A DNA stretch of 64,000 bases from the NCBI GenBank assembly GCA_948144175.1, contig CANXME010002665.1, positions 1-64,000 of the forward strand, given 5' to 3'. The notes under the pieces were generated by a model that searched no databases, had not been told where the DNA came from, and saw only the letters and a list, made by a program, of their open reading frames with translations. Numbering within the stretch: the first letter of the stretch is position 1; every line of letters starts with the position of its first letter. Below are positions 21,527-64,000 of the stretch, one piece after another. The DNA is from Closterium sp. NIES-65. Taxonomy: Eukaryota > Streptophyta > Zygnematophyceae > Desmidiales > Closteriaceae. The position numbers and the translations under genes are program-made.

Positions 21527-24500
21527 CCGTATTACCCCGGACAAAAGCGCAGGTGCGCTTATAATAAAACAGTGTTTTTTGGGGGGGTGCGCTTCTAATT
21601 GAGGTGTCTGTATACGCGCATGCGCCTATAATAAGGAAAAAATGAAATTCACTTTTAAACATACTAAACTGAAGCCCGCAATAAGGCGAATCCAACGGAC
21701 CATGCAACAGGTGGGATCGTGCATGATTTTCAGGCAAAAACAGCTGCGGTTCGGTTTCCCACCGCACAAAGTTGTCTAGAACCATCGAATGTGACAGGAG
21801 TGACGGGGATGTTGCCGTGCGGCCCAATCACAGCCGCATGCGCTGCGTGGCATCTGTATTTCTTCCGAACCCTCTCGAAGGGTGGGGAAGATTCCCTGCC
21901 AGCGCAGCGAATATGCTGCCACGCAGGTTCCTCTACGGGGGTAGGCGGGGGTTTCCTGCCTGTCATTGACGAGGACCCCGGGCCGCTAGCCCGCACGGGT
22001 CCCCGTCATTGCCCATTTCTGCACCCTCCTCCTCATTTTTTTCATTCAGTTTCTAGTCTAGCCCGCCTGGCTGGCAAAGCCATGGCGGAATTCAGTGGGA
22101 CGCACCTCCTTTTCAAGAAGAAACCAACCCGCGCCTAGCGACTAATCTCGGACGGGTGGTATACACGTGAGCCACCAGCGCCTCCAGTGCCACCTACACC
22201 CCCTGCACCGCCTGCTCCACCTGCTCCTCCTGCACCTCCTGCTCCTCCTGCTCCTCCCGCTCCTCCGAATCCTCCGACTCCTCCTGTTCCTGACGCGTGG
22301 GGTCACCATCGGCCCGTGCTCCAGTTATATTTGCCTGCCACTTTCGACGAGTGGTTGTCTGAACCGGACACACCCAAGGCTAGGCAAATCAATGGTCCGC
22401 CGACTGCACCTCGGTGGGGAAATCCTGAAGCCTGCACGTGGGACGAGTCGGCTGTGGGCGCCGACGATGACGTGGCCGCCGATAAACAACCCACATGCGA
22501 CGGCGATGCTGGAGGCGACGGTGGAGTCGACGGTGAAGAGGGCGCCGAGGAGGACGTGTTCTCAGATCGTGAAGCTACAGACGCGGACGACGACGGTGTG
22601 GAGTCTTGGTGGCGCGACGCACCACGCGAGAAGATGCCGATACCAACGTATCCGTCGATTAACAAAAAACGACCCCACCCCTCCTCTGAGAACCGAGATG
22701 CCCGCCCCCCCTCTCCCAAGCACAAGCCGACTCAACACAAACGGCAGCGCTACACCGCCCAGGAGAAACTGAAGTGGCTCGTTCGGCTGGAGCTTGCTGC
22801 ATCGGTAAGCGAGGTCGCGCGGGAGTTCGGCATACACCGCAAATGCCTCACAGAGTGGAAAAACCAAGCGGAGGAGCTCAAGGCTGCACACAGTGCTCGG
22901 TGTCGACTTCATGGGCGCGGAAGGTCTTCCTGGTACAGACCCATGGAGATGAAGGTGTACGCCCAACTCCTGGACTGGCGACGCCGCGGTGTGGCAGTAT
23001 CAGTCGGCCGGTTGCAAGAGTGGTCAAAAGAGGTGATGAAGGTGTTGTTCCCGGACGTCAAGTGGAAGGCGAGTCAACGCTGGACAGAGCGGTTCCGCAA
23101 GCGGTGGAATCTCACCGTGCGCATGAAAACAAAGGTGGCGCAAAAGACACAGCAGCGTAAGTGCCTGTCCGTGCACTGTCATCCTATCGTGAAATTTTAT
23201 CTTGTATTTCAGTACTTTCTTGCCCATGTTTCCTTATCTGTAGCGGTGCTCATCCGCCCTTGTAATCGTTCCTCCCTCCCCGTGCGCAGACGTGGCCAAG
23301 CAGTGCAAGGAATTTTGGCAGTTTGTCCGCGACGCACGCCACGACTACGACATCGACAATCGTTACATCATCAATGCCGACCAGACGCCTTTGTGGCTGG
23401 AGATGCCGGCGACTACCACGGTGGAGCAGACGGGCGTGAAGTCGTTGCCCATCCGCAGTGGTGGTTACCACAAAGAGAGAGTCACTGTGATGCTGGCGTG
23501 CACGGCGATGGGCGAGAAGTTGAAGCCGTGGGTGTTTTTCAAGCGCAAGACCCTCCCAAAGGGTGACTTTCCAAACGGTAAGAAACTGCGTATGCGCGTG
23601 TTTCCGAGGGGAAAAACATAAGTAAAATCTAACCACCACTTGCTTGTATGCAGATGTCGTGGTCGGTTGCCAAGCTAATGGGTGGATGGAGGCCTCGGGC
23701 GTAATCGAGTGGCTCGGTGCAGGCGTGGTGCCGTTCCTGAAGCCGAAGTTCGGATTGCAGAGCCGGAGCGCCATGCTAGTGCTCGACTCCTATCGTGGAC
23801 ACCTGACAACCGAAGTCAAGGCGAAGTTCGCGGAACTCAACATCGTGCCGGCGGTCATCCCAGCGGGATGCACGGCAGACTTGCAGCCCCTCGATGTGTC
23901 GGTCAACAAAAGCTTCAAGGCGAGTGTTCGGCAGCAGTACCAGACCTGGTTCGAGCAGGACGGCATGAACATCCTGACACCCGCAGGTACGCAAAAGTGT
24001 TCTCCCGTGACCGCTTCGTCTGTATGTCTGCCTACTTGTGGACCCACGTGTTTCCCACCCCCGTGTATGTGGTGCAGGGAACATTAAGAAACCATCTCCG
24101 GAGGTGGTGCTCAAGTGGATTTCACGGGCGTGGAAAGCTGTGCCCGCCGACCTGATTAAGAGAGCGTTCCTCACCTGCGGCATCAGCAATGCCCTTGACG
24201 GGAGTGAAGACGGACTGGTGCTAGCGCACCGGAGAGGTCAGCTATCCCACGAGGTAGAGGTTGATGACGACATCCAAGCAGACGGGTTCTTTGGCAACAA
24301 CTCCACGGAGCCTGAGTCGGATGAGGAGTAGGCCTTAGGCTAGACTAAACTTAAAAATGTCGTGTAGGCTAGGATGCTAGTCTAATGTATTTGACTTGAA
24401 AGTTTTAGTTGAATTTTTTAGCTAGAGTAATGTGGTTTGTACGAAGGTAGTAAAGAAAGTGAAAAAAACAACAGACATTCTTGTCTATATAGCAAGAGTG

Positions 24501-24820: not shown

Positions 24821-25902
24821 CATTCCTGCCTTGACACTTGTGTCTCAATCCCCGTTTTCCCGAGTCGCGTCTGTCAGTGGGAGTAGAGCTAGCGGTGTAG
24901 CAGTGGGTGTGTATCAGGGGGGTGGGACTGTGTGCGGGAGGATGAGCGGAGGTTGCCAGTTTGTCGTCAGCAGCACCTGTAGTCCGGGGCGCTGTCCCGG
25001 TAGCCCAGTGAGCTAGACTTCTACGCCAGCCGCCTGTGGGTCCGTTGCCCGTCCGCCGCTATTTGAGCCGCGGGGCCTGTTACTCCTGTAGTCCGGGCGC
25101 TGTCCGGTAGCCGCTGTGCCAGTCTGCCTCCTGCTGCCCGTGTGTCTGCAGCTTCAGCCGTCGCCTCCTATCTCCTCTCCCCTCACTCTCCCTCCTCCTC
25201 CTCACCTGCCCGTTGTGACTACCACTAGCTTTGCTTATAATTGTGAACTCTAAACTATTTCTTCTTGAACTTGTGCTCAGAATGTGTGGTGATATTGTGA
25301 TCCACCCTGAGCTTGTTTTGCTTTGCCTGCTCTGCTGATTACACCCCACTTTGGCTATGGGGGTGTGTCAGAATATTATTCTTATGTTCTAGCCTGTAGT
25401 GGGGTGCTCTATAGCGAGTACAACCCTTCTAGGGTTTGCTATTTGTATCCCCATTTCTGCTAGTTCATTCCTCTTTCTTCCTTCTAATTTTGTCAGCGTC
25501 GAAACATTTTGTCAATCTCGCGTCACAAGAGATGAATGTATCACGACACTAGGCGACCAGGCGAAATGCACAAATCTGCGCATTTGATTGGGTGAAACGA
25601 ATGGCTGTACACCGGTTTCTTCAATCGTTTGGCTGGCATTTTGTTTGTGATGCGTGGGATTTTTTTCCCCGCGAATTTCGCTATGCAGGCGTCCAGATGC
25701 ATTGACATTTCGAACCGCATGCGATTTTGTATGAATGTTGCGTCGGTTTACAATTCGTCAGCGACGTTAGCGCGTTTCACGCTGACCAATGAAAAATACA
25801 GTAGCAGCCGCTGAAATCCGACTCGCAATTGGGACACACTACAGTTTATGCTGTTTTTGGGTGTTACAAAGCGATTGAGACATTTGTGTCAAGGCAGGAA
25901 TG
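24821..25902. repeat. About 1.1-kb segment bounded by 30-bp inverted repeats
   Basis: The 30 bp at 24821-24850 (cattcctgccttgacac...tgtctcaatc) recur inverted at 25873-25902 with three mismatches in the middle. The segment holds unassigned sequence (24851-25250), a copia 3' end with LTR (about 25250-25495) and AT-richer unassigned sequence (25496-25872). It may be a non-autonomous DNA transposon that received a copia insertion. No flanking duplication could be proven because element A starts at the right border. Confidence 0.55.
25250..25495 (+). mobile_element. Copia 3' UTR fragment with 130-bp LTR
   Basis: The words ttgtgctcagaatgtgtggtga and gatccaccctgagcttg (25268-25315) match the 3' untranslated regions of elements D, E and F. 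They are followed by the purine tract ctatgggggtg and an LTR starting TGTCAGAATATTATT at 25366. The LTR ends near 25495, giving 130 bp, the same length as the LTRs of A, D and E. No internal coding part remains. Confidence 0.75.
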
Positions 25903-28900
25903 TCAAAACATTGTAGCTTATGCTTTTGTGTAGGCTATAGTGGGGTATCCCACAGGGGGTACAACCCAATTAGGGTTAGTACTTGTACCAACTTCGCTCA
26001 TAGTTCATCCATTCTCGTTCTCATTCTCACATGGTATCAGAGCAGGTCCCCTCCTAGGGACTGTTTCTTGGGCCCACCGAAGCGCGCCCCGCGGCGCGCG
26101 TTTTTTTTTAGCGACCCGTAGTGTCGCCCTCCCCCCCTCCCACCAGCCCGTCGCGCCAAGAACCCACCCCCCCATGTACATCACTCTCTACTTTCTAGTC
26201 ACCCGCCTCCCCGACTCCCTTCGTGTAGTCCGGGACCACTTCCTCGCGGTCTGTCCCACCACTCTCACAGTCGACAGCCTAGAGAAGGCCCTCCTAGCGG
26301 CGGAGAAGAGCATCGTCGCTGTAGGAGCCTCTCGAGGTGACCCCCGCGCCCCCATCTTTGAGGGGTGTTCTCCTTCCCCTCTCTTGCCCTCTGTCGCCTC
26401 TGCCGCTGCGGCCGACCTCGTTGGTCTTGAGTCGGTCGGTGCGGCGTCTGCCCCTAGCGGGAGACGTCGCCCTCGCAAGGGCAAGGGGGGCAAGGGAGCG
26501 GGTGGGGCTAGCGGGGGCGGTGGCGGTGGAGGTGGAGGCGGCGGAGGGAGTGGGGGTGGCGGTGGAGGAGGTGGCGGGGGTGGGGGTGCTAGTGGCAGCA
26601 GTGGTGGCGGAGGCGGCGTCGGCGGTGGCGGTACCGGCGGGGGTGGCGGCGGTGGCGGAGGTGGAGGAGGTGGAGGAGGAGGTGGTGGAGGTGGTCGGAG
26701 TGGCACTTCACAGCGGAGCGGCACTGGGGGTGGTCAGCGCCAGCAGCAGCAGCAGCAGCAGCGTTCTCGCGACGTCCCCACCCCTCAGCAGCTCCGTGAG
26801 TGGTACACGCAGCGTCAGCGTGGTGGGGGACTTGGTCCCTGCACCTACGTCCTTCACACCGGCGACCGCGCGGGTGAGCAGTGTGGGGGTGCCCACCCCA
26901 CCCAGCGCTGCTTTGGCCGCCTGATGGACGCTTGGCGTCAGCAGTTTCCGGAGGCCACGGAGATCCCCCGCTGGGGAGAGCTGTCTAGGGCTGGCGTGGC
27001 TATCTTTGATCTTGACTTTGATGCTATCCTTGCTGCCATGTATGCTGTGACTATTAGTGATGAGGGTGACAGTTACCGGTGTTTCCCGCCCGACCCGGGC
27101 ATTGGTGCTGCTGCGCTAGGTGCTTGTGAGGCTACTGCTCTAGGTGCCAGTGCGTCTGCGCTCTCAAGTGCTAGTGAGGCTGCGCTCTCAGGTACTAGTG
27201 AGGCTGCGCTCTCAGGTACTGCGTCGGCTTCGGCCTCCCTCACCTTCACACTTGACTCAGGGGCTTCTCGCTCCTTCTTTCGAGACCGCACCACACTCAC
27301 GCCGCTTGGTCGGCCGGTTGCAGTCTCCCTGGGTGACCCCTCTGGGGGTCCTGTCCTCGCTCACTTCTCCACTATCCTCCCATGTCCGGCTGCCCCCTCG
27401 GGCACCCTGTCGGGTCTGTACCTCCCCTCGTTCTCGACGAACTTGGTGAGTGGTGCTGACCTGCAGGATGCGGGGGTTCACCAGTTCACTCCTGCGAGTC
27501 AGCGGGGGACCCACTGCTCGGACGCCCGCACAGGCCGACACCTAGCCACGTTTTCGCGTCGGCCCGGGTCGAGTCTCTACACCCTGACCATTGAGTCTCC
27601 TCCAGTCCCTGCGTCTGGCCAGGTAGCTGCGTCGGGTCAGGTGTTTGCTGCTGCGTCCAGGTCTGGTCCTGAGTCTGCCCCCTGCTCGTGTCGCCTCCTG
27701 TCTCACGAGACTCTCTTGTGGCACCACCGTCTTGGCCACCCCTCCTTGCCTCGTCTTTGGGGCATGGCTTCCCGTGTCCTTGTCTCTGGTCTCCCCCGGT
27801 CTCTCCCTCCCCTTCCTTCGGGGCCAGGACCTTCCTGTGTCCCTTGTGTCGAGGGGCGGCTCCGGGCTGCCTCTCACTCCTCCTAGTTTCCCCCGACAGA
27901 GGCTCCTCTGCAGACGCTTCACATGGACGTGTGGGGCCCGGCCCGCGTCCGTGGACAGGGTCACGAGCGCTACTTCCTGCTGGTGGTTGACGACTACTCG
28001 CGTTACACCACAGTCTTCCCCTTGCGCAGCAAGGGTGATGTCACTGAGGTGTTGATCGACTGGATCCGCGCGGCTCGTCTCCAGCTCAGGAGGAGCTTCG
28101 GCTCGGACTTTCCTGTTCTGCGTCTGCACTCTGACCGAGGCGGAGAGTTCTCCTCTGGCCTTCTGCGAGCCTACTGTCGTGCACGAGGCATCCGCCAGAA
28201 CTTCACGCTTCCGGACTCTCCACAGCAAAATGGGATTGCTGAGCGCCGCATTGGCATGGTCATGGACGTCGCTCGTACGTCCATGATGCATGCGGCTGCC
28301 CCCCATTTTCTGTGGCCGTTTGCGGTTCGGTACGCGGCGCATCAGCTCAACCTTCACCCCAGGGTCTCCCGGCCGGAGACCTCCCCAGCTCTGCTGTGGA
28401 CGGGGAAGGTCGGCGATGCGTCTGCGTTCCGTGTCTGGGGATCTCGGGCGTTTGTCCGTGACCTGTCTGCGGACAAGCTGTCCCCTCGTGCTGCTCCCTG
28501 TGTCTTCCTAGGCTTCCCCCCTGACGCCCCAGGGTGGCAGTTCTACCACCCCTCCTCTCGTCGTGTTCTGTCCTCCCAGGACGTCACGTTGGACGAGTCA
28601 GTCCCCTTCTACCGCCTCTTCCCCTACCGCACTCCTTCCCTCCCGCCGCCGCCACACTTCCTTGTACCAGGTCCCCCCCCAGTAGACCCCCTTCCCCCTC
28701 AGGGTCCTGCCCCTTCAGGTGTGTCCCAGGTCGATGCAGTCGAGCCGGTCGAGGTTGCTGGTGACTCAGGTACTGCTGGGGGTGCTGCGCCTGGGGGTGC
28801 TGACTCTGGGGGTGCTGAGTCTGGGGGTGCTGAGCCTGGGGGTGCTGAGTCTGGGGGTGCTGAGCCTGGGGGTGCTGAGCCTGGGGGTGCTGCCTCTGGG

Positions 28901-37500: not shown

Positions 37501-37665
37501 GAACAGGTAGGGAAGCGATAGGCGGCCTAGTGCAGCTGAGATGAATGAACAGGAATGATTGAACTAACAGTGAAATCAGTACAAGTACCTAACCCTAGAA
37601 TTGTGTACCCCCTATAGGCTAACCCACTGTAGCCTAAACAAGCACAACATATATAATGTTTGACA
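31536..37665 (-). mobile_element. Copia element B (short-LTR family), minus strand
   Basis: The 3' LTR lies at 31536-31666 (131 bp) after a tatgggggtg purine tract. The 5' LTR lies at about 37537-37665 and joins Gag directly, so the primer-binding site, leader and Gag N-terminus are gone. The two LTRs differ at many positions (by eye roughly 70% alike); the 5' one is nearly identical to the LTR of element D. The 5-bp flanks (gtatg left, tgcat right) do not match. B is therefore a rearranged or recombinant copy, not a clean insertion. Confidence 0.82.
31900..37422 (-). CDS. Element B Gag-Pol polyprotein, 1,840 codons open
   Basis: This is the longest intact retroelement frame in the window. 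In order: partial Gag (NPPPLWLTLYHLVTRLPD), glycine-rich tract, QELREWY, C-X13-C-X3-H-X4-C motif, protease DSGAS, integrase zinc finger LWHHRLGHP with CLPC, DDE core (HMDVWG, HSDRGGEFSS, QQNGVAERR), a linker with two further REWY words, reverse transcriptase with KARYVARGFSQ and YVDDLVF, and RNase H (TGHSDASWADD, YVDNKATIAL). It ends LLTS and TGA. The frame also runs upstream of the first ATG to the LTR junction near 37536, so the true N-terminus is deleted. In RNase H the usual EAEI word is EAKI (codon at 32242-32244), which changes the glutamate expected to bind metal. Without a primer-binding site it should not transpose by itself. Confidence 0.88.
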   Translation of the reverse strand: MPAEFLASNPPPLWLTLYHLVTRLPDTLRTVRDHFLARCPTELTITALEKELLAAEKSIVAVGTSRGDPRTPFFEGCSPSPLLPSVASAAAVDLLGAEQVGSASAPSGRRSGRGRGGKGGGGDGGGGGGGGGGGGGGGGGAGGASGSGGGGGGSGGGGGRGGGGGGGGSGRGGGRGGGGRGGSGTSQSAQHPQSSQELREWYLQHGGGGGSLSCTYVIRTGRRKGQTCGRAHTAQRCFSRLDDAWRAQFPDAPELPQWADLLKKDIDIYALDFDVILKAMYALTISGEEDQYLCVPPDPGIRTSEAAALGACVSAAPGASATTALGACVSATPGTTESTEALHTFTLDSGASRCFFRDRTALEPLARPVAVSLADPSGGPVIATSSTVLPCPAVPSGTLSGLHLPSFSTNLVAGCALQDGGVHQFTPAYERVTHCTCARTGRHLATFTRQPGSDLYTLTTESPQVAASASASASGQLSAPCSCRSLAHKTVLWHHRLGHPSVQRLRGMHSRYLVSGLPRVIPPLPPSLAPPCLPCVEGRQRAAPHSSSFPPTTAPLQTLHMDVWGPARVRGQGQERYFLIVVDDYSRYTTVFPLRTKGEVPDVLIPWISRARLQLRERFRSEFPVLRLHSDRGGEFSSDLLAAYCAEHGIRQSFTLPASPQQNGVAERRIGLVMEVARTSLVHAAAPHFLWPFAVRYAAHQLNLWPRVSAPETSPTLLWTGEVGDASRFRVWGSRAFVRDTSADKLSSRTAPCVFLGFVPDASGWQFYHPASHRVFPSQDVTFDESVPFYRLFPYRTAPLPPPPLFLAPGAAVVDPLPPQGAAPSGVSQVDPVEPAEVAVDSRPARGAEPERAEPERAEPERVEPGGAESGVAESGGAETGGAEPGGAGSGGTEPGVAESGGAEPGSVAVECEAPGGPPSSQQLREWYSRYCSLRRGASRARGATGVGTHVSPPRREPSSPQHREWYARHISLRSGTARAGVPGVDAAAGAADPGAGGAAAAGGAAGGAARTEDPGVGAAAGAADPAARGAAAAGGAAGAAGGAAAAAGVEDPEGGASAGAEDPAAGVSACSGVAARPRPYLVPLLQQVLGQTPPPCPPLALECPPSVQSQPQLPPASPLPVPTPYTGPTGGLAERREPASRPVSPASPASRRASPVRAATTGSRVQRQRPPAVPGTHQMALCQSTAPQRVALPSPPASSLPALADPESDTLRAASPTVTRLLATVVTDPSFESAAASALVTELVDFAATCRLDYAASLVTESESVCPPSVGGECALGTDVLEDRQEEFGCLAAALPNLVSMLVAPEGDPDAPDTPTPRSYAEAMAGPYSSQWQSAMDTEMASWKSTGTYVDEVPPPGANIVSGMWIFRVKRPPGSPPVFKARYVARGFSQREGVDFFQTFSPTPKMTTLRVLLHVAAKRDYELHSLDFSTAFLQGSLHEEIWLRRPPGFTGSFPPGTQWSLRRPVYGLRQAPREWHDTLRTTLAALGFAPSTADPSLFLRTDPSLPPFYILVYVDDLVFATSDTAGLAHVKSELQKRHTCTDLGELTSYLGLRITRDRARRTITLTQSHMVQQVLQRFGFTYSSPQSTPLPTGHSLSALPSDESVEPSGPYPELVGCLMYLMTCTRPDLAYPLSILARYVAPGRHRKEHMDAAKRVLRYLYSTSGMGLVLGGRDRPVLTGHSDASWADDQATQRSSQGYTFSLGSGSVSWRSTRSSSVLSSSCEAKIYATAMAAQELRWLTYLLTDLGEQPRSPPVLYVDNKATIALCQEHRLEHRTKHIALRYFLARELQQRGQLLLRYVATEANTADVFTKALPPVDHQRFCTLLGLVPTVPHLLTS

Positions 37666-37908
37666 TGCATTTCTTTGTATTCCTTGTACTCTTATATAAT
37701 CTTGTATCTCCTTGCTTTAATCAATCTACTTTGCCCTCACATACTAGCGCAAGGTGGTTCACAGTACTTCATTAAACGCTTCCGCTATTACATCAGTCTT
37801 ACCCAGAGTTCACCCCTGCAAAGATCCTAAGGGCTTTTCTCAGCCCAACATGGTATGAGAGCTATCAGGGGGAATTCAACTACCACAACACCTACAACAA
37901 CAGAAGAC

Positions 37909-39417: not shown

Positions 39418-41474
39418 TGTCAGATTTATATGACTTAGCTGCTGTAGGCTATAGTGGGGTAGCACATATGGGGTACAGCTTTCTAGGGTTTGCACTTGTA
39501 CCCAACTTTCCCTTAGTCTTTTCATTCTCGTTCAATTTCACATGGTACAGAGCGGGTTCCCCTATGGGAACTGTTCCTAGGGCCCACCGATTTTTTTTTT
39601 TCCTGCCCGGAGCGCGCTCAGCCTCTGCCCGAGTCGCGCTCCCCTCTCACGACCCCGTCGCGCTGCCCTTACGACCCCGTCGCGCCGCCTTAGCGGCCCC
39701 GTCGCGTCGCGCCTCCCTAGCGGCCCCGTCGAGTCGCCCTTGCGACCCCGTCGTGCCGCCCTCGCGGCCCCATCACGTTGCGCCGCCTTCGCGGCCTCTT
39801 CGCGCCGCCCACACGGCCCCGTTCCGCCGCCCTCGCAGCCCCGTCGCGTCGCGCCGCCCTTGCGGCCCTTTCGCGCCGCCCTCGCGGCCCTTTCGCGCCG
39901 CCCTAGCGACCCCTCCACGCCGCCCTCGCGGCCCCGTCACCTACCCTTGCGGCCCCGGCGCCGCTCTTCCGGCCCCGGCGCCGCCTCTGCTGGCCCCGTC
40001 GCCCCACCCTTGCGACCCCGCGGCCCCACCCTTAAGGCGCCGGTCGCCACCCTTCGTGGCCCCGCCCCCGCCCTCAGCGGCCCCGTCGCCGCCCCACCCG
40101 GCCCCGCCGCCGCCCTCAGCGGCCTCGTTGCCGCCCCACCCGGCCCCGCCGCCGTCCCTTCAGCAACCCTGCCACCCTACGCGGCCCCGCCGTCACCACC
40201 GAGCCGCCGGCGCCGCTGAGTCGCCGTTGCCGCTGTGCTGCCGAGCCGCCGCTGCTGCCGAGCCGCCCGAGCCACCCAAGCAGCCCGAGCCGCCGAGCTG
40301 CAGTTGCTGCCGAGCCGCCGAACCACCGAGCCGCCCGAGCCGCCCTGTCCGGTAAGAGTGGCACCTCTACCACTGCGCTGCCCTTAGCCTACAGCTCGCG
40401 CTGATAGTCTACTGCTGTCATGGCTACCCCCAGCGTCCTCGCTTTTGACGCTGAGGGTCGGGCCATTGACTTTGACGTCTGGGTAGATGACCTGCAGCTT
40501 TTCCTACAGTGCGATAGAGCAGACGGTCTCTCCCTCTTTGACCTCACTTCTGGTGCCTCTCCTGCCCCTACTGCTGATGCTGACGCCACTGTTTGCTCAC
40601 AGTGGGCCACACGCGATGCTGCTGCACGTCTTGCTGTGCGTCGCCACTTGCCTACCTTTGAGCATGCACACTTTAGCCAGTACAAGAGTGCTAGGACCTT
40701 GTACGACGCTGTAGTTGCACGCTACTCTTCCCCTGCTACTGCTGCACTTAGCCGCCTCATCCTGCCGTACCTCTTCCCTGACCTCACTGCTTTTCCCACA
40801 GTCGCTGACCTCATTACGCACCTTCGCACTAGTGACATTCGCTACCGAGCTGCCCTTCCCGCTGAGTTCTGCGCCAAGAACCCCCCCCCTATGTACATCA
40901 CCCTCTACTACATAGTCACCCGGCTCCCTGACACCCTTCGCCCGGTTAGGGACCCACTTCCTCTCTGTTTGCCCCACCACCCTCACCGTTGACCTCCTCG
41001 AGGAGCGCCTCCTAGTAGCAGAGAAGAGCAGAGTCGCTGTAGGAGCCTCTCGTGGTGAACCTCGTGCCCCTGTCTTTGAGGGGTGCTCCCCCTCTCCTCT
41101 CTTGCCCTCTGTTGCCTCTGCTGCTGCGGCCGACCTCGTTGGTCTTGAGTCGGGCGGTGCCGCGTCTGCCCCTAGCTGGAGACGCCGCACTGGCAAGGGC
41201 AAGGGGGGCAGGGGCGCTGGAGGAGCTAGCGGGGGCGGTGGAGGCGGCGGTGGTGGCGGCGGAGGGGGTGGGGGTGGCGGTGGGGGTGGTGGCGGGGGTG
41301 GGGGCGTCGGTGGCGGCAGTGGAAGCGGAGGCGGCGGCGGCGGTGGCGGTGGGAGCGGAGGTGGCGGAGGTGGCGGTGGTGGAGGTGGCGGCGGTGGAGG
41401 AGGCGGCGGCGGAGGAGGTGGAGCTGGTTCGGGTGGTGCTACGCAAAGGGTCGGCTCCAGTGGAGGTCAGCGTT

Positions 41475-49247: not shown

Positions 49248-50028
49248 TGTCAAACATTATATATGTTGTGCTTGTTTAGGCTACAGTGGGTTAGCCTATA
49301 GGGGGTACACAATTCTAGGGTTAGGTACTTGTACTGATTTCACTGTTAGTTCAATCATTCCTGTTCGTTCATTTCATCATGGTATAGAGCAGGTCCTTCG
49401 CTAGGACCGTTTTTTTTTAAGGGCCCACCACTACCTACCTACCTAACTGCGCCCTAGGGTGCCTCGTTCTCCACGGCCCCCTAAGGCCCCGCGACCCGCG
49501 ACCCGCCCCTTAGCGACCTGCGCGCCGCCCCTTAAGGCCCCGTCGGCCCACGCGCTCGCCCCTTACGGCCCCGCGCTCGCCCCTTCGCGACCCCGTCGGC
49601 CCCACGATCGCCCCTAACGGCCCCGTCGGCCCCGCGCTCACCTCCCTAGAGGCCCCCGTCGGCCCCGCACTCGCTCCTAGAGGCCCCTTACGGCCCCGCG
49701 CTCGCCCCTACAGGCCCCGAACGGCCCCGCGCTCGCCCTTAGCGGCCCCTTACAGCCCCGCGCTCGCCCCTAGAGGCCCCGAACGGCCCCGCGCTCGCCC
49801 CTAGAAGCCCTGGACGGCCCGTGACCGCCACAGCCCCTCCAGGACCGAGCCGAGCCGCGCGACCCGAACCGAGCCGCCCAGTCCGAGCCGAGCCGCGCGA
49901 CCCGAACCGAACCGCGCCGCCCTACCCGAGCCGCGCCGCCCTACCTGAACTAAACCGCGCCGCGCGTACTGTCCGAGCCGCCCTACCTGTCTCACCCTCC
50001 TACTCCTACTGCTGCTCCTACTGCTCCT

Positions 50029-54665: not shown

Positions 54666-57600
54666 TGTCAGAACATTATAGCTTATGCTTTTGTGTAGGC
54701 TATAGTGGGGTATCCCATAGGGGGTACAACCCAATTAGGGTTAGTACTTGTACCCACTTCACTCATAGTTCATTCATTCTCGTTCTCATTTTCACATGGA
54801 ATCAGAGCAGGTCCCCTCCTAGGGACTGTTTCTTGGGCCCACCGAAGCGCGCCACGAGGCGCGCGTTTTTTTTTTAGCGACCCGACGTGTCCCCCCCCCC
54901 CCCCCCCCCCCCCCCCCAGCGGCCCGACGCGCCGCCTTTCGGTCGCGGCCCCGCCGCCCTACCCTTCGACGGCGCCGCCGCCCTACGTCGCGGCCCCGCC
55001 GCCCTACTTCGACGGCCCCGCCGCCCTACGTCGCGGCCCTGCCGCCCTACCCTACGTCGCGGCCCCGCCGCCCTACCCTTCGACGGCGCCGCCGCCCTAT
55101 GTCGCGGCCCCGCCGCCCTACATCTACGGCCCCGCAGCCCTACGTCGCGGCCCTGCCGCCCTACCCTACGTCGCGGCCCCGCCGCCCTACCCTTCGACGG
55201 CGCTGCCGCCCTACGTCGCGGCCCCGCCGCCCTACTTCGACGGCCCCGCCGCCCTACGTTGCGGCCCCGCCGCCCTACTTTGACGGCCCCGCCGCCCTAC
55301 GTCGCGTCCCCGACGCCCTACCCTACTTCGCGGCCCCGCCGCCCTACGTTGCGGCCCCGCCGCCCTACCCTACATCGACGGCCCCGCCGCCCTACTTTGC
55401 GGCCCCCGCCGCCCTACTCGACGGCCCCGCCGTACTACGTCACAACCCCGCCGCCCTACTCAGCGGCCCGCCAGACGCCCTACCTGCGGCACGCCTGCCG
55501 CCCTACCTGCGGCCCACCCGCCGCCCGACCGCCGGGTCCCCCAGCCGCTGAGCCGCCGAGCCGCCCAGCAGACGACCGCCGAGCCGCCGAGCCGCCCAGC
55601 AGCCGAGCCGTCCAACACCCGAGCTGCCGAGCCGCCGAGCCGCCCAGCAGCCGAGCAGCCGAGCCGCCGAGCCGCCCAGCAGCCGAGCCGCCGAGCAGCC
55701 GAGCCGCCCCGCAGCCGAGCCGCCGGCCGCTGAGCTGCCCTACTTCCATACCGCCCGTTCTGCCCAGTCTGGTGAGCACAGAGCCTTCTTTTTCACTGCG
55801 CTGCCCTCACCCTACTGCTTACACTGCTAGGAGTCTGTCGTCATGGCTACCCCCAGTGTCCTCGCTTTTAACGCTGAGGGTCGGGCCATTGACTTTGAGG
55901 TCTGGGTAGATGACCTCCAGCTGTTCTTACAGTGCGATAGGGCAGACGGCCTCTCTCTCTTTGACCTTACCTCTGGCGCTTCCCTTGCCCCTGCTGCTGA
56001 TGCTGACCCTACTGTTCGCTCCCAGTGGGCTACGCGCGATGCTGTAGCACGTCTTGCTGTGCGTCGCCACCTCCCTACCTCTGAGCGTGCGCACTTTAGT
56101 CAGTACAAGAGTGCTCAGACCTTGTACGACGATCTAGTTGCGCGCTACTCCTCCCCTGCCACTGCTGCACTGAGCCGCCTCATGCTACCCTTCCTCTTCC
56201 TTGACCTTGCCGCCTTTCCCACAGTCGCTGATCTCATTACGCATCTCCGCACTAGTGACACCCGCTACCGCGTTGCGCTTCCTGCTGACTTCTGCTGCCG
56301 GAGGTGCTGAGGGTGCTGGTGATGTCCCTGCTGTGTCTGGTGCCGCTGCGCGGCCTCGGCCGTACTTCGTTCCGCTCCTTCAGCAGGTTCTTGGTCTTCC
56401 TCCTCTCTTAGAGGGTCCACCGCCTGTCCAGTCGCAGTCACAGTTACCGCCGGCCTCCCCACTGCCTTCTCCCTCTCCGTACACTGGTCCTACTGGAGGT
56501 CTTGCTGAGCGTCGTGAGCCTGCGTCTCGTCCTGCGTCGCCTGTTCGTACTGCTCGCACTAGTGGTCGCAGTTTGCGTCAGCGTCCTCCTCCTGTCCCTG
56601 GCACGCACCGGATGTCTCTGTGTCCGTCCACTGCTCCTCTGCGTGCCCCTTTGCCCTCTCCTCCTGAGTCCTCTCTTCCTGCGCTTGCCGACCCTGAGTC
56701 GGACTCTCTTCGTGCTGCCAGTCCTACTGTCACGCGTCTCCTTGCTACTGTCGTCACTGACCCCTCCTTGGAGTCCACTGCTGCGTCTGCTCTTGTTGCT
56801 GAGCTCGTCGACTTTGCTGCTCGCTGTCGTCTAGACTACGCTGCTAGTCTTGTTGCTGAGTCTGCGTCTGTCTGTCCTCCGTCCGTCGGGGGTGAGTGTG
56901 CTCTTGGCACGGACGTCCTTGAGGACAGGCAGGAGGAGTTTCAGTGTCAGGCTGCTGCTTCACCTCATCTCGCGTCTGTACTGCTTGCCCCTGAGGGAGA
57001 CCCGGATGCACTAGACATCCCAACTCCGCGCTCTTACGCGGAGGCCGTAGAGGGTCCCTACTCCTCTCAATGGCAGGCAGCTATGGATGCAGAGATGGCT
57101 TCCTGGAAGTCCACAGGCACCTACGTTGACGCGGTTCCCCCTCCTGGGGCGAACATCGTCAGTGGGATGTGGATCTTCAGGGTGAAGCGGCCACGGGGCT
57201 CTCCACCTGTCTTCAAGGCGCGGTACGTGGCTCGTGGCTTCAGTCAGCGGCAGGGAGTTGACTACTTTCAGACCTTCTCTCCCACCCCAAAGATGACCAC
57301 TCTTCGGTTGCTGCTGCACATAGCCGCTCAGCGCGACTACGAGGTCCACTCTCTTGACTTCAGCACTGCTTTCTTGCAGGGTAGCCTGCACGAGGAGATC
57401 TGGCTGCGCCGTCCACCTGGCTTCACTGGGACTTTCCCTCCTGGCACCCAGTGGAGCCTCCGACGGCCAGTCTACGGTCTCCGCCAGGCATTGCGTGAGT
57501 GGCACGACACACTGAGGACTACGCTTGCGGCTCTTGGGTTTGCTCCCTCTACTGCTGACCCGTCGTTGTTTCTGCGCACCGACACTTCTCTGCCGCCGTT

Positions 57601-58948
57601 CTACATCCTCGTGTACGTCGACGACTTGGTCTTTGCCACAGCAGACACTGCTGGACTCGCCTACGTGAAGTCCGAGCTGCAGAAGAGACACACGTGCACA
57701 GACCTGGGTGAACTGCGCAGCTACCTTGGCTTGTAGATCACTCGGGACAGAGCACGCCGCACCATTACCTTGACTCAGTCACACATGGTGCAGCAGGTCC
57801 TTCAGCGCTTCGGCTTCACGTACTCCTCGCCTCAGGCCACTCCTCTGTCTACTCGCCACTCGCTCTCAGCTCTGCCTTCGGATGAGTCCGTAGAGTCGAG
57901 TGGCCCGTACCCAGAGCTTGTTGGCTGCCTCATGTACCTGATGACCTGCACACGACCTGACCTTGCATACCCTCTTAGCATTCTCGCACGCTATGTTGCT
58001 CCTGGGAGACACCGACCAGAGCACATGGCTGCAGCGAAGAGAGTGTTGCGCTACTTGTGCAGTACGTCGGGCATGGGGCTAGTGCTTGGAGGGCGGAGTC
58101 CAGTGGTCCTCACTGGGCACGCGGACGCTTCTTGGGCTGACGACCAGGCTACGCAGCGCTCGTCGCAGGGTTACACCTTCAGTCTTGGTTCCGGCTCTGT
58201 TTCGTGGCGGGCTACTCGCTTGTCTTCTGTTCTCGGCTCCAGTTGTGAGGCTGAGATCTACGCCGGGGCCATGCCTGCTCAGGAGCTTCGCTGGCTCACC
58301 TACCTGCTGACTGACCTTGGAGAGCCGCCTCGTTCTCCTCTAGTGCTGTACGTAGACAACAAGGCCATGCTGGCCTTGTGTCGAGAGCAGCGCCTGGAGC
58401 ACTGAACGAAGCACATTGCTCTCCACTACTTTCTTGCTCGTGAGCTGCAGCAGGGTGGTCAGTTGCGACTTGCGTACGTGGCCTCTGAGGCCAACACTGC
58501 TGATGTTTTCACTAAGGCACTTCCGCCTTGTGATCATCAGCGTTTCTGCACTCTGCTGGGACTTGTCCCAGTCTTGCCTCACTTGCTCACCTCTTGACCT
58601 TACTTGTACTCTTGCATATATATATATATATATACCTGCTCTTGCTTGTCTAGACTTATATATATATGTCTCCTCCTGCATGTGAACTGGCCTTGTGGCC
58701 TTGACCTTGTGCTCAGACTGTGTGGTGACGTTGTGATCCACCCTGAGCTTGCTTTGCTCTGCTTTGCTTGACTGGTCTTGTGACCCCTTGTTCTCCCCCA
58801 CTTTGCCTATGGGGGTGTGTCAGAACATTATAGCTTATGCTTTTGTGTAGGCTATAGTGGGGTATCCCATAGGGGGTACAACCCAATTTGGGTAAGTACT
58901 TGTACCCACTTCACTCATAGTTCATTCATTCTCGTTCTCATTCTCACA
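54666..58948 (+). mobile_element. Copia element E nested in D, internally deleted
   Basis: The LTRs are 54666-54796 and 58818-58948 (131 bp each, three differences). TSD gaagc is at 54661-54665 and 58949-58953. The primer-binding site TGGAATCAGAGC is at 54797. A run of about 27 C bases (near 54891-54917) precedes a leader of gccgccctacgtcgcggccc-type repeats (54940-55470). Only the Gag N-terminus and the RT/RNase H part remain, joined at about 56290. Confidence 0.93.
55843..58596 (+). pseudogene. Element E truncated Gag fused to RT/RNase H
   Basis: Gag reads MATPSVLAFNAEGRAIDFEVW to LPADFC (55843-56293). A deletion then joins it to the linker before reverse transcriptase (GGAEGAGDVPAVSGAAARPRPYFVPLL). 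The glycine tract, zinc motif, protease and all of the integrase are lost, with a frame change at the join. Reverse transcriptase is otherwise good (FKARYVARGFSQ, YVDDLVF). TAG at 57734 replaces CAG and TGA at 58403 replaces AGA. The tail ends LLTS and TGA near 58596. Confidence 0.88.
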
Positions 58949-61320: not shown

Positions 61321-61744
61321 GCGCCTCTGTCGTGTCGAAACACTAAGGCATGAACGAAGCGAAGCATATCGAAGCACCGGCGAGTCAACCCTCGGAGGTT
61401 GAAAGTAACTGTTGGAGGTTACGCGAAAGCCCAAGGTCAGCGACCTTTGACCTGACAAATACAGCGCGACAGCAAGGACACACAACTGACTTGCTATAGA
61501 GCAGTTGCCCGAGTCGTCACCGTATCGAACCGCAATAGCAACAGTAAAGTAGTTATAAATGCATTTCTTCGTATTCCTTGTACTCTTATATAATCTTGTA
61601 TCTCCTTGCTTTAATCAATCTACTTTGCCCTCACATACTAGCGCAAGGTGGTTCACAGTACTTCATTAAACGCTTCCGCTATTACATCAGTCTTACCCAG
61701 AGTTCACCCCTGCAAAGATCCTAAGGGCTTTTCTCAGCCCAACA
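61299..61744 (+). repeat. 3' LTR of element C
   Basis: 446 bp, bounded by TGTTGG and CCAACA, a perfect 6-bp inverted end. The last 185 bp match the surviving 5' LTR (37666-37850) with one difference. Confidence 0.92.
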
Positions 61745-61831
61745 AACTTTCCATTAACTAAGACAATCACATACAATGGTGGTCTCTGCTTTTCTGCCCT
61801 ACACAACTTTCAACCTGTCTAGTCTACCCTA

Positions 61832-64000
61832 TGGCCTATTCCTCCTCCTCGTCCGACTCTGGCTCTGTAGAGTTGTTGCCCCAGAACCCATCGGCCTGGA
61901 TGTCGTCGTCCACCTCCACCTCATGGGACAACTGGCCTCACCGGTGCGCCAACACCAGTTTGTCCTCACTCCCGTCAAGGGCGTTGCTGATGCCGCACGT
62001 GAGGAAGGCTCTCTTGATCAGGTCGACGGGCACAGACTTCCACGCCCGTGAAATCCACTTGAGCACCACCCCCGGAGGTGGTTTCTTGATGTTCCCTCCA
62101 TCACACAATTTGGGGAGGGGAAAACATGAGTGCATCAACAGGCATACAAGCACACGATTTGGAGACGGTAGGACATGTCGCCACTCACCTGCCGGGGTCA
62201 GGATGTTCATGCCGTCCTCCTCAAACCAATTCTGGTACTGCTGACGAATGCTTGCTTTGAAGCTCTTGTTGATCGACACATCGAGCGGCTGCAGGTCTGC
62301 CGTGCATCTCGCAGGGATGATTGCAGGCACGATGTTGAGCGCTGCGAATCTCGCCTTCACTTCGGGTGTTAGGTGACCGCGGTAGGAGTCAAGCACCAGC
62401 ATGGCGCTACGACTCTGCAGGCCGAATTTTGGCTTCAGGAACGGCACCACACCCGCATCGAGCCACTCGATGATGCCCGCGGCCTCCATCCACCCGTTCG
62501 CTTGGCAGCCGACCACAGCATCTGCACGCAGGAGAACGACAGGTTAGAACGACTCTGGTTCAACCATTCAGGAAATCGCCCTTGGGGAGTGTCTTGCGCT
62601 TGAAAAACACCCATGGCTTTAACTTCTCGCCTGTCGCCGTGCATGCAAGCATCACGGTGACTCTCTCCTTCTGATAGCCACCGATGCAGATAGGCACCGA
62701 CCTCACGCCCGTCTGCTCCACGGTGGTCGTCGCCGGCATCTCCAACCACATCGGTGTCTGGTCGGCGTTGATGATGTAACGGTTGTTAATGTCGTATTCG
62801 TTCCGGGCATCTTGTACGTACTGCCAGAAGTCTTTGCACTGGTCCGCCATGTCTGCGCACATGGAGGGTGTCAGTAGATCTGCACTGTGGATGCCCGATT
62901 GATCCTACGGGGGGTTACAGGCGCGTTTGCCTGGGGGGTTATGGGCGCACTCTGACCCGCTACTTAACAAGCCCTTTTATCCCAATGGTCTAGTGGTTGG
63001 GATTCTGAGATGGTATCCAGAGCGAAGGTCTCGGGTTCGAATCCCGGTGTATGCACTTCGGGCATCCCAGTGCGGGGGGGTGTCAGAGGTCTACTGGTGA
63101 TCCCCGATCGATCCTAGGGAAGGGTTACAGGCACATTTGCCTGGGGGGTTATGGGCGCACTGACCCGCTACTGAAACAAGCCCTTTTATCCCAATGGTCT
63201 AGTGGTTGGGATTCTGAGATGGTATCAGAGCGATGGTCTCGGGTTCGAATCCTGGTGTATGCACTTCGGGCATCCCAGTGCGGGGGGGTGTCAGAGGTCC
63301 ACTGGTGATCCCCGATTGATCCTAGGGAAGGGTTACAGACATGTTGGTCTGGGGGGTTATGGGCGCACTGACCCGCTACTTAACAAGCCCTTTTATCCCA
63401 GTGGTTAGTGACTGGGATTCTGACATGGTGTCAGAGTGGTCTCGGGTTCGAATCCCGGTGTATGCACATGTAGGCCGTTGCCGCTGTGCTCAGTCCTGGG
63501 CCTCCCAGTGTGGGGGGGTGTCAGTAGATCTGCACTGTGGATGCCCGATTGATCCTACGGGGGGTTACAGGCGCGTTTGCCTGGGGGGTTATGGGCGCAC
63601 TCTGACCCGCTACTTAACAAGCCCTTTTATCCCAATGGTCTAGTGGTTGGGATTCTGAGAGAGGGAAGGACACATAGGGAGCCGGATTAGTATCGCGCAC
63701 ATGAGACATGCAACAAAGAAAAAATCAATCTCGGGATTCATCGAAATCAACGGTAAAAAAATCACTTACGCTCCTGTGTTTTCTGCGTCACCTTTGTTTT
63801 CATGCGCACGCTGAGGTTCCACCGCTTGCGGAAGCGCTCCATCTACCGATGACTGCCTTTCCACTTGACGCCAGGGAACAGCACCTTCATAACTTCTTTG
63901 GACCACTCTTGCAGCCGGCCGACCGAAACCGCAACTCCGCAGCGTCGCCAGTCGAGGATTTGCGCGTACACCTTTAACTCCATAGGTCGGTACCAAGACG
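61832..64000 (-). pseudogene. Second pogo-like DDE transposase (pogo-2), decayed and open at window end
   Basis: The exon structure matches pogo-1: exon 4 at 61832-62095, exon 3 at 62189-62521, exon 2 at 62565-62852, and exon 1 from about 63770 to beyond 64000. Exon 2 has NADQTPMWLEMP and exon 3 has LVLDSYRGHL and LQPLDVSINKSFK, so the catalytic aspartates remain. Damage: TAG in exon 1 (plus-strand 63843-63845) where pogo-1 has a tryptophan codon, and TGA in exon 4 (61938-61940) where pogo-1 has AGA. Intron 1 is enlarged by the TRIM insertion. Element C ends about 85 bp beyond its stop codon, so C probably landed in the 3' part of this element. No terminal inverted repeat is visible inside the window. 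Confidence 0.88.
62869..63660 (+). mobile_element. TRIM-type miniature LTR retrotransposon concatemer (4 LTRs, 3 internal segments)
   Basis: LTRs: 62869-63010, 63081-63219, 63289-63425 and 63519-63660, all starting TGTCAG and 137-142 bp long. Internal segments of 70, 69 and 93 bp each begin with a primer-binding-site word (TGGTATCCAGAGC, TGGTATCAGAGC, TGGTGTCAGAG) and end in a G-rich purine tract (gggggggtg). The 5-bp target duplication gaggg flanks the array (62864-62868 and 63661-63665). The first and last LTR are identical; the inner two differ. Each LTR ends with a tRNA-Glu-like A-box region (TGGTCTAGTGGTTGGGATTC, or a shorter variant) and each internal segment has a B-box word (GGTTCGAATCC). 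It lies in intron 1 of the pogo-2 pseudogene and has no coding capacity. Strand is assigned from the PBS to purine-tract order. Confidence 0.85.

Follow-up and report, generated by a model that had tools for sequence, protein, structure and literature searches.

Within the window, i.e. the whole stretch of 64,000 nucleotides of Closterium sp. NIES-65 DNA that was analysed, a short repeated element raises the question of whether a tRNA-like pol III promoter can be shared between the LTR of a retrotransposon and the internal segment that follows it. The sequence-only reading had proposed that the LTR end and the internal segment of a TRIM together mimic a split tRNA-Glu gene. In our view the element is probably a recently inserted, tandemly arrayed, non-autonomous TRIM, driven by pol III from a type-2 promoter that is split by the LTR border. 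Its anatomy, the TSD and the empty site, the identical outer LTRs, the positions of the boxes, the tRNA-iMet-type PBS and the purine tract are read directly from the DNA.

Results and Discussion

A tandem array of four LTRs

The element had been described as a single LTR-internal-LTR unit. It is indeed an LTR element of the TRIM type, but the array at 62869-63660 consists of four direct LTRs that alternate with three short internal segments (Table 1), and the originally proposed interval, 62864-63665, is exact when both GAGGG TSDs are included. The array totals 792 bp, i.e. it stays below the 1000 bp that bound a two-LTR TRIM even though it has four LTRs. The LTRs start with TGTCAG and end in GA (LTRs 1, 2 and 4) or CA (LTR3). 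The GA ends (63010, 63219, 63660), found instead of CA, were used in integration, as judged from the TSD. The outer LTRs are identical, and the remaining alignments contain 128 identities, 8 mismatches and 9 gap positions (LTR1-LTR2), 122, 13 and 9 (LTR1-LTR3), and 125, 12 and 2 (LTR2-LTR3), respectively. The internal regions are bounded by a PBS (exact in one of the three) and by a G-rich (purine) tract directly before LTRs 2, 3 and 4, as is characteristic of TRIMs.

Among the ORFs of at least 220 aa in the window, none lies inside the array. The array is known from one locus: self-comparison with the 64-kb window gave short matches only, the best with E 0.012 over 17 nt and the second-best outside the array with E 0.042 over 21 nt, at a Copia LTR end and PBS. 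The element pattern had no matches in viral contigs and none in bacterial and archaeal genome contigs, which say little here.

Table 1. Coordinates of the array, its promoter-like motifs, its empty site and a candidate helper lineage
Feature	Position	Strand	Remarks
Uninserted paralogue of the insertion locus	22928..24368	-	Self-comparison of the window; joined flanks align
Copia-family LTR (131 bp, 25901-26031), then exact PBS TGGTATCAGAGC	25901..26043	+	Candidate helper lineage
5' TSD GAGGG	62864..62868	.	Exact repeat at 63661-63665; single copy in uninserted paralogue
LTR1, 142 bp, TGTCAG...CTGAGA	62869..63010	+	142/142 identical to LTR4
CAA, predicted pol III start	62968..62970	+	From sequence; start predicted at A 62969 or 62970
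AAGCCCTTTT, predicted R	62969..62978	+	Includes TTTT 62975-62978; TTTT counterparts at 63184, 63391, 63625
Box A TGGTCTAGTGG	62986..62996	+	In LTR1; exact match to TRGYNNARYGG; more exact copies at 63195, 63636; degenerate at 63394
Internal segment 1, 70 bp	63011..63080	+	PBS TGGTATC(C)AGAGC with one extra base; purine tract GCGGGGGGG at end
Box B GGTTCGAATCC	63034..63044	+	Exact; copies at 63242, 63445
LTR2, 139 bp	63081..63219	+	By alignment to LTR1
Internal segment 2, 69 bp	63220..63288	+	Exact PBS TGGTATCAGAGC at 63220-63231
LTR3, 137 bp	63289..63425	+	By alignment to LTR1; CTGACA end; degenerate box A
Internal segment 3, 93 bp	63426..63518	+	PBS with 2 mismatches; box B exact; purine tract
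LTR4, 142 bp	63519..63660	+	With box A; no box B in the following 100 bp of 3' flank (best, 4 mismatches)
3' TSD GAGGG	63661..63665	.	Matches 5' TSD; empty paralogue

Insertion site and origin of the array

When the flanks of the array are joined with one copy of the TSD, they align without a break to the paralogue across the insertion site, and this empty site contains one GAGGG as opposed to the two around the array, i.e. the short TSD of an integrase-type insertion. The array looks as if it sits in a short intron of a transposase-like gene, since minus-strand signals of a putative intron are present (a GTAAGT donor near 63769 and an AG acceptor near 62853). The open frame of the paralogue matches HTH_Tnp_1 (E 1.3e-06). 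The transposase-like gene is duplicated in inverse orientation (22187-24368 and 61798-63998), the two copies being about 79-85% identical.

Reverse transcription renders outer LTRs identical. Because the outer LTRs of the array are identical while the inner ones differ, and because there is one TSD pair, a single event of reverse transcription and integration most likely brought in the whole array; its transcript would therefore have read through the inner TTTT sites. We regard the recent date of this insertion as probable, as part of the overall explanation given above. A nested insertion of separate elements is unsupported, given that one outer TSD pair was found and that the outer LTRs are identical. 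Single-event tandem LTR insertions with TSDs have been described in rice (PMC11899658), and tandem TRIMs are reported to be common among plants, with 129 subfamilies distributed over 35 of 43 genomes (PMC4717578).

Box A and box B on the two sides of the LTR border

The tRNA-like unit spans the LTR/PBS border, as had been suggested: box A lies in the LTR, box B lies in the internal segment, 48 bases downstream of the start of box A, and the position of the anticodon arm is taken by the LTR border and the PBS. The expected T arm/B box sequence is exact in all three internal segments; of the A-box sequence or variant with which each LTR was said to close, the exact form is present in LTRs 1, 2 and 4, and in LTR3 the box is degenerate. 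More precisely, TGGTCTAGTGGTTGGGATTC is exact in three of the four LTRs (62986, 63195 and 63636; shuffle mean 0.00) and its LTR3 version has one deletion plus substitutions, so that the third junction (LTR3/segment 3) combines a degenerate box A with an exact box B. CTCGGGTTCGAATCC is exact in 3/3 internal segments; at a tolerance of 3 mismatches, three matches are within chance (shuffle mean 1.27, with 15 of 100 shuffles reaching 3). The distribution of box B follows the anatomy, with 0 mismatches in all three internal segments and at least 3 in any of the four LTRs.

Between positions 1 and 62500 of the window exact box A occurs 0 times on the plus strand and 3 times on the minus strand, and exact box B is absent. 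The strict pair, i.e. both boxes at tRNA-like spacing, is found at two sites in the window (62986 and 63195), which are copies of one lineage and count as one observation; when the 64 kb were dinucleotide-shuffled 100 times, no such pair arose on either strand.

Resemblance to tRNA and RNA structure

The unit is not a functional tRNA gene. ARAGORN found 0 tRNA genes in the window and relaxed settings gave low-score candidates only, on both strands; the unit is devoid of an acceptor stem; and scoring of the LTR/internal boundary with the Rfam tRNA model, a kind of check that the earlier reading had proposed, gave 15.3 bits (E 8.6) at junction 1 and 12.1 bits (E 3.9) at junction 2, both below the gathering score of 29. 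In small scans run separately on junctions 1 and 3, RF00005 was absent from the match tables; the sole tRNA-clan match listed there was a T-arm fragment of the tmRNA model (8.5 bits), outscored in bits by unrelated families. In structure the unit does not mimic tRNA-Glu: an acceptor stem is missing, and its 5' part is able to fold into another hairpin. Retention of the boxes as a promoter is the simplest interpretation.

In terms of isotype, the comparison set consisted of 13 tRNAs. Among these, the LTR half is nearest to a human tRNA-Glu (19/20 bases), the internal half to an Arabidopsis tRNA-Val, and the whole unit to an Arabidopsis tRNA-Gln, with a resemblance that extends over the anticodon arm, so that the three comparisons point to different isotypes. 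The scores of the LTR half and of the internal half against these tRNAs were each reached by 0 of 2000 mononucleotide shuffles.

The border stretches of LTR1/segment 1, LTR2/segment 2 and LTR3/segment 3 (J1, J2 and J3, respectively) accommodate a T-arm hairpin plus two further hairpins, AUCCCARU...RYUGGGAU in place of the acceptor and D arm, and UCUGA...UCAGA, which pairs the LTR end with the PBS. Between J2 and J3 (alignment columns 11-53) all 5 of the 5 substitutions fall in paired columns with the pair kept or created, and the 3 substitutions in the first hairpin are equalled by 322 of 62,100 random triples; in a shuffle control of this covariation the two-sided changes were reached in 131/500 cases and the paired percentage in 41/500. 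The minimum-energy fold has the first hairpin in two of the three junctions, J2 being the exception, and compared with shuffles the folds give z values of -0.03 (J1), -0.30 (J2) and -2.19 (J3), i.e. only J3 folds better than most. The evidence is mixed, and conserved RNA hairpins at the junctions are suggestive only.

The primer binding site and a candidate helper

The PBS TGGTATCAGAGC, which is of the plant tRNA-iMet type, is exact, carries one inserted base or has two mismatches, depending on the segment. The search pattern of the Cassandra paper includes TGGTATCAGAGC. The TRIM and the Copia-family LTR of Table 1 can be aligned over 29 columns, from the LTR end through the PBS to AGGTC, with a score of 30 that 0 of 1000 mononucleotide shuffles reach and to which the shared 12-base PBS contributes most. 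Because of this alignment, Copia is likely to be the helper of the TRIM. Another Copia in the window has reverse transcriptase and integrase domains.

In Copia-type elements of the window (26032-26071, 39543-39583, 49380-49420 and 54797-54836) the PBS is immediately followed by a hairpin (GGTCCC..GGGACT, GGTTCCC..GGGAACT, GGTCCT..AGGACC), and from family to family the two members of its pairs change together. The T-arm-like hairpin of the TRIM is in roughly this position. No such hairpin follows the similar PBS (37851) of a separate LTR family. A second family of LTRs, about 186 bp long, is present at 37665-37850 and 61559-61744 (99.5% identical), one copy being followed by a PBS-like sequence and the other being apparently a solo LTR. 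The Copia LTRs at 54666-54796 and 58818-58948 abut Copia coding sequence on one side, as if they were remnants of recombination or deletion.

With respect to the origin of the split unit, we speculate that a Copia LTR-end/PBS junction took the place of the anticodon arm in a tRNA-like promoter, since the part shared with Copia covers just the interval from the D-arm-like to the T-arm-like region. Alternatively, and just as speculatively, the PBS may have originated inside an anticodon arm that was already present, since the whole unit resembles tRNA-Gln across that arm.

Comparison with known elements

It is interesting to compare the array with TRIMs that have a tRNA-like pol III promoter, which were named Helenus or TRIMp3 by Kojima in 2024 (PMC10886601). 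Like these, the present element is a short, gene-free LTR element with tRNA-like pol III boxes, a PBS and a purine tract; it shares the 5-bp TSD of fungal and plant Helenus, and Copia is the likely helper, as that paper proposes for fungi. The box A/box B consensus is also kept, with the strict pair at two of the three junctions. However, Helenus is defined by tRNA-derived sequence within the LTR, and according to the text and figure legends of that paper both boxes are found in LTR alignments from fungi, insects, fish and molluscs, whereas here box B is outside the LTR in 3/3 units and the border falls at the anticodon-arm position.

Cassandra is likewise a TRIM with a pol III promoter, a tRNA-iMet-type PBS TGGTATCAGAGC, tandem arrays and a short terminal redundancy (predicted in the present case), but its 5S rRNA-derived sequence lies wholly within the LTR, and an Rfam scan of 62500-64000 gave no 5S match up to E 10. 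In this the element differs from Cassandra, as had been suggested; TRIMs with a tRNA-derived pol III promoter do not form a new class in view of Helenus (PMC10886601). The alternation of LTRs and internal segments with an outer TSD is that of TA-TRIMs (L4I3 in the notation of PMC4717578), the difference being that 'tRNA-like' has 0 occurrences in the main text of that survey. Finally, tRNA-derived SINEs have box A and box B, but not the LTR anatomy and 5-bp TSD seen here, where in turn there is no tail. In the open-licence literature we found no published description of a promoter split across the LTR border, a layout that the Selaginella family could share. The split layout is a new variant; the tRNA-promoter TRIM as such is already published.

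Weighing the explanations

The most serious competitor, which we nevertheless consider rather unlikely, is that the locus is an ordinary pol II-type TRIM array whose border resembles a tRNA by chance or as a relic, with no promoter function. The sub-threshold scores of the tRNA model, the degenerate pair at one of the three box A/box B junctions and the finding that junctions 1 and 2 fold no better than shuffles (z -0.03 and -0.30) would all suit such an array, as would the fact that box-B matches in a single segment are not rare at 3 mismatches. On the other hand, chance is difficult to reconcile with exact boxes at tRNA-like spacing at two of three junctions, as opposed to none in 100 shuffles, or with half-unit scores against the 13 tRNAs that none of 2000 mononucleotide shuffles attained.

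It is improbable, more so than the preceding explanation, that the array is a regular Helenus-type element whose split is unremarkable because the Selaginella family has the same layout. The Selaginella family (Helenus-1_SMo) has an LTR of 120 bp and an internal region of 85 bp, i.e. similar sizes, as well as a 5-bp TSD, and the main text of PMC10886601 does not give the placement of its boxes; but the definition in that paper puts the tRNA-derived sequence in the LTR, and the LTR alignments show both boxes. A tandem tRNA-derived SINE, finally, would explain box A, box B and a unit near 210 bp, yet we reject it as hardly credible, since the LTRs, the 5-bp TSD and the empty site contradict it, the ends of the element are LTR ends next to a PBS and purine tract, and there is no A-rich or simple-repeat tail. 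The sequence-only reading had already argued from the PBS, the purine tract and the 5-bp TSD for an LTR retrotransposon rather than a SINE, and all three features are present.

A model of transcription and replication

The pol III start, stop and R are parts of a model that we infer for the split pol III TRIM. TTTT is the usual stop of pol III. In the 792 bp it occurs at four homologous LTR places only, in all four LTRs between CAA and box A. If position 8 of a tRNA corresponds to the start of box A, CAA is at -11 to -9 of tRNA position 1; in Arabidopsis tRNA genes the start site is reported to be a CAA up to 10 nt upstream (PMC11700998). In the 5' LTR, pol III would initiate at the CAA, which precedes box A by about 16 nt; termination would take place in a downstream LTR, at the TTTT that separates its start site from its box A. 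The transcript, of about 219 nt to the next LTR or about 660 nt to the last LTR, would carry AAGCCCTTTT at both ends, and this terminal redundancy of about 10 nt could serve as R. The 18-bp duplication of Cassandra transcripts (as told in PMC10886601) is an analogue for this role of AAGCCCTTTT. Copia reverse transcriptase and integrase would then copy and insert the RNA, with tRNA-iMet as primer.

The conservation of the proposed signals is not exceptional. The invariant block of 19 nt around the predicted start does not exceed the length expected if the variable columns are placed at random (P 0.25), another invariant block is equally long, and conservation of the start/terminator block is not significantly above that of the remaining LTR; by our estimate, a second TTTT would often be missing by chance from a 210-bp unit at the present T content. 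Moreover, an RNA of the full array, if made by pol III, would have to read through the two inner TTTT sites. If termination at TTTT is efficient, no single transcript could span the full array, which counts against the model. For Cassandra arrays, transcripts that read through inner LTRs have been reported.

Implications

As one coherent reading, to which we give somewhat less than an even chance, a type-2 promoter would be bisected, with the PBS in the place of the anticodon arm, competence would depend on the junction, and a stretch of 10 nt would provide start, terminator and R. Since the promoter is cut at the LTR border, its competence would require an intact LTR-internal junction, and since box B lies beyond the LTR, the promoter would be incomplete in 3' LTRs and in solo LTRs. 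If this is true, full-length copies would be transcribable and the 3' LTR and solo LTRs would not, and consequently no element-driven transcription would enter the flanking DNA.

Screens for tRNA-like TRIMs that consider the LTR only would overlook split elements, because neither part alone resembles a tRNA gene. If the reading holds, the layout would be a compact solution for pol III LTR elements, as an internal promoter would give rise to RNA with terminal redundancy, and a second problem would be solved too, in that the 3' LTR is kept silent. It would also show a tRNA gene merging with the priming site of a retroelement, the PBS being placed in the anticodon-arm position.
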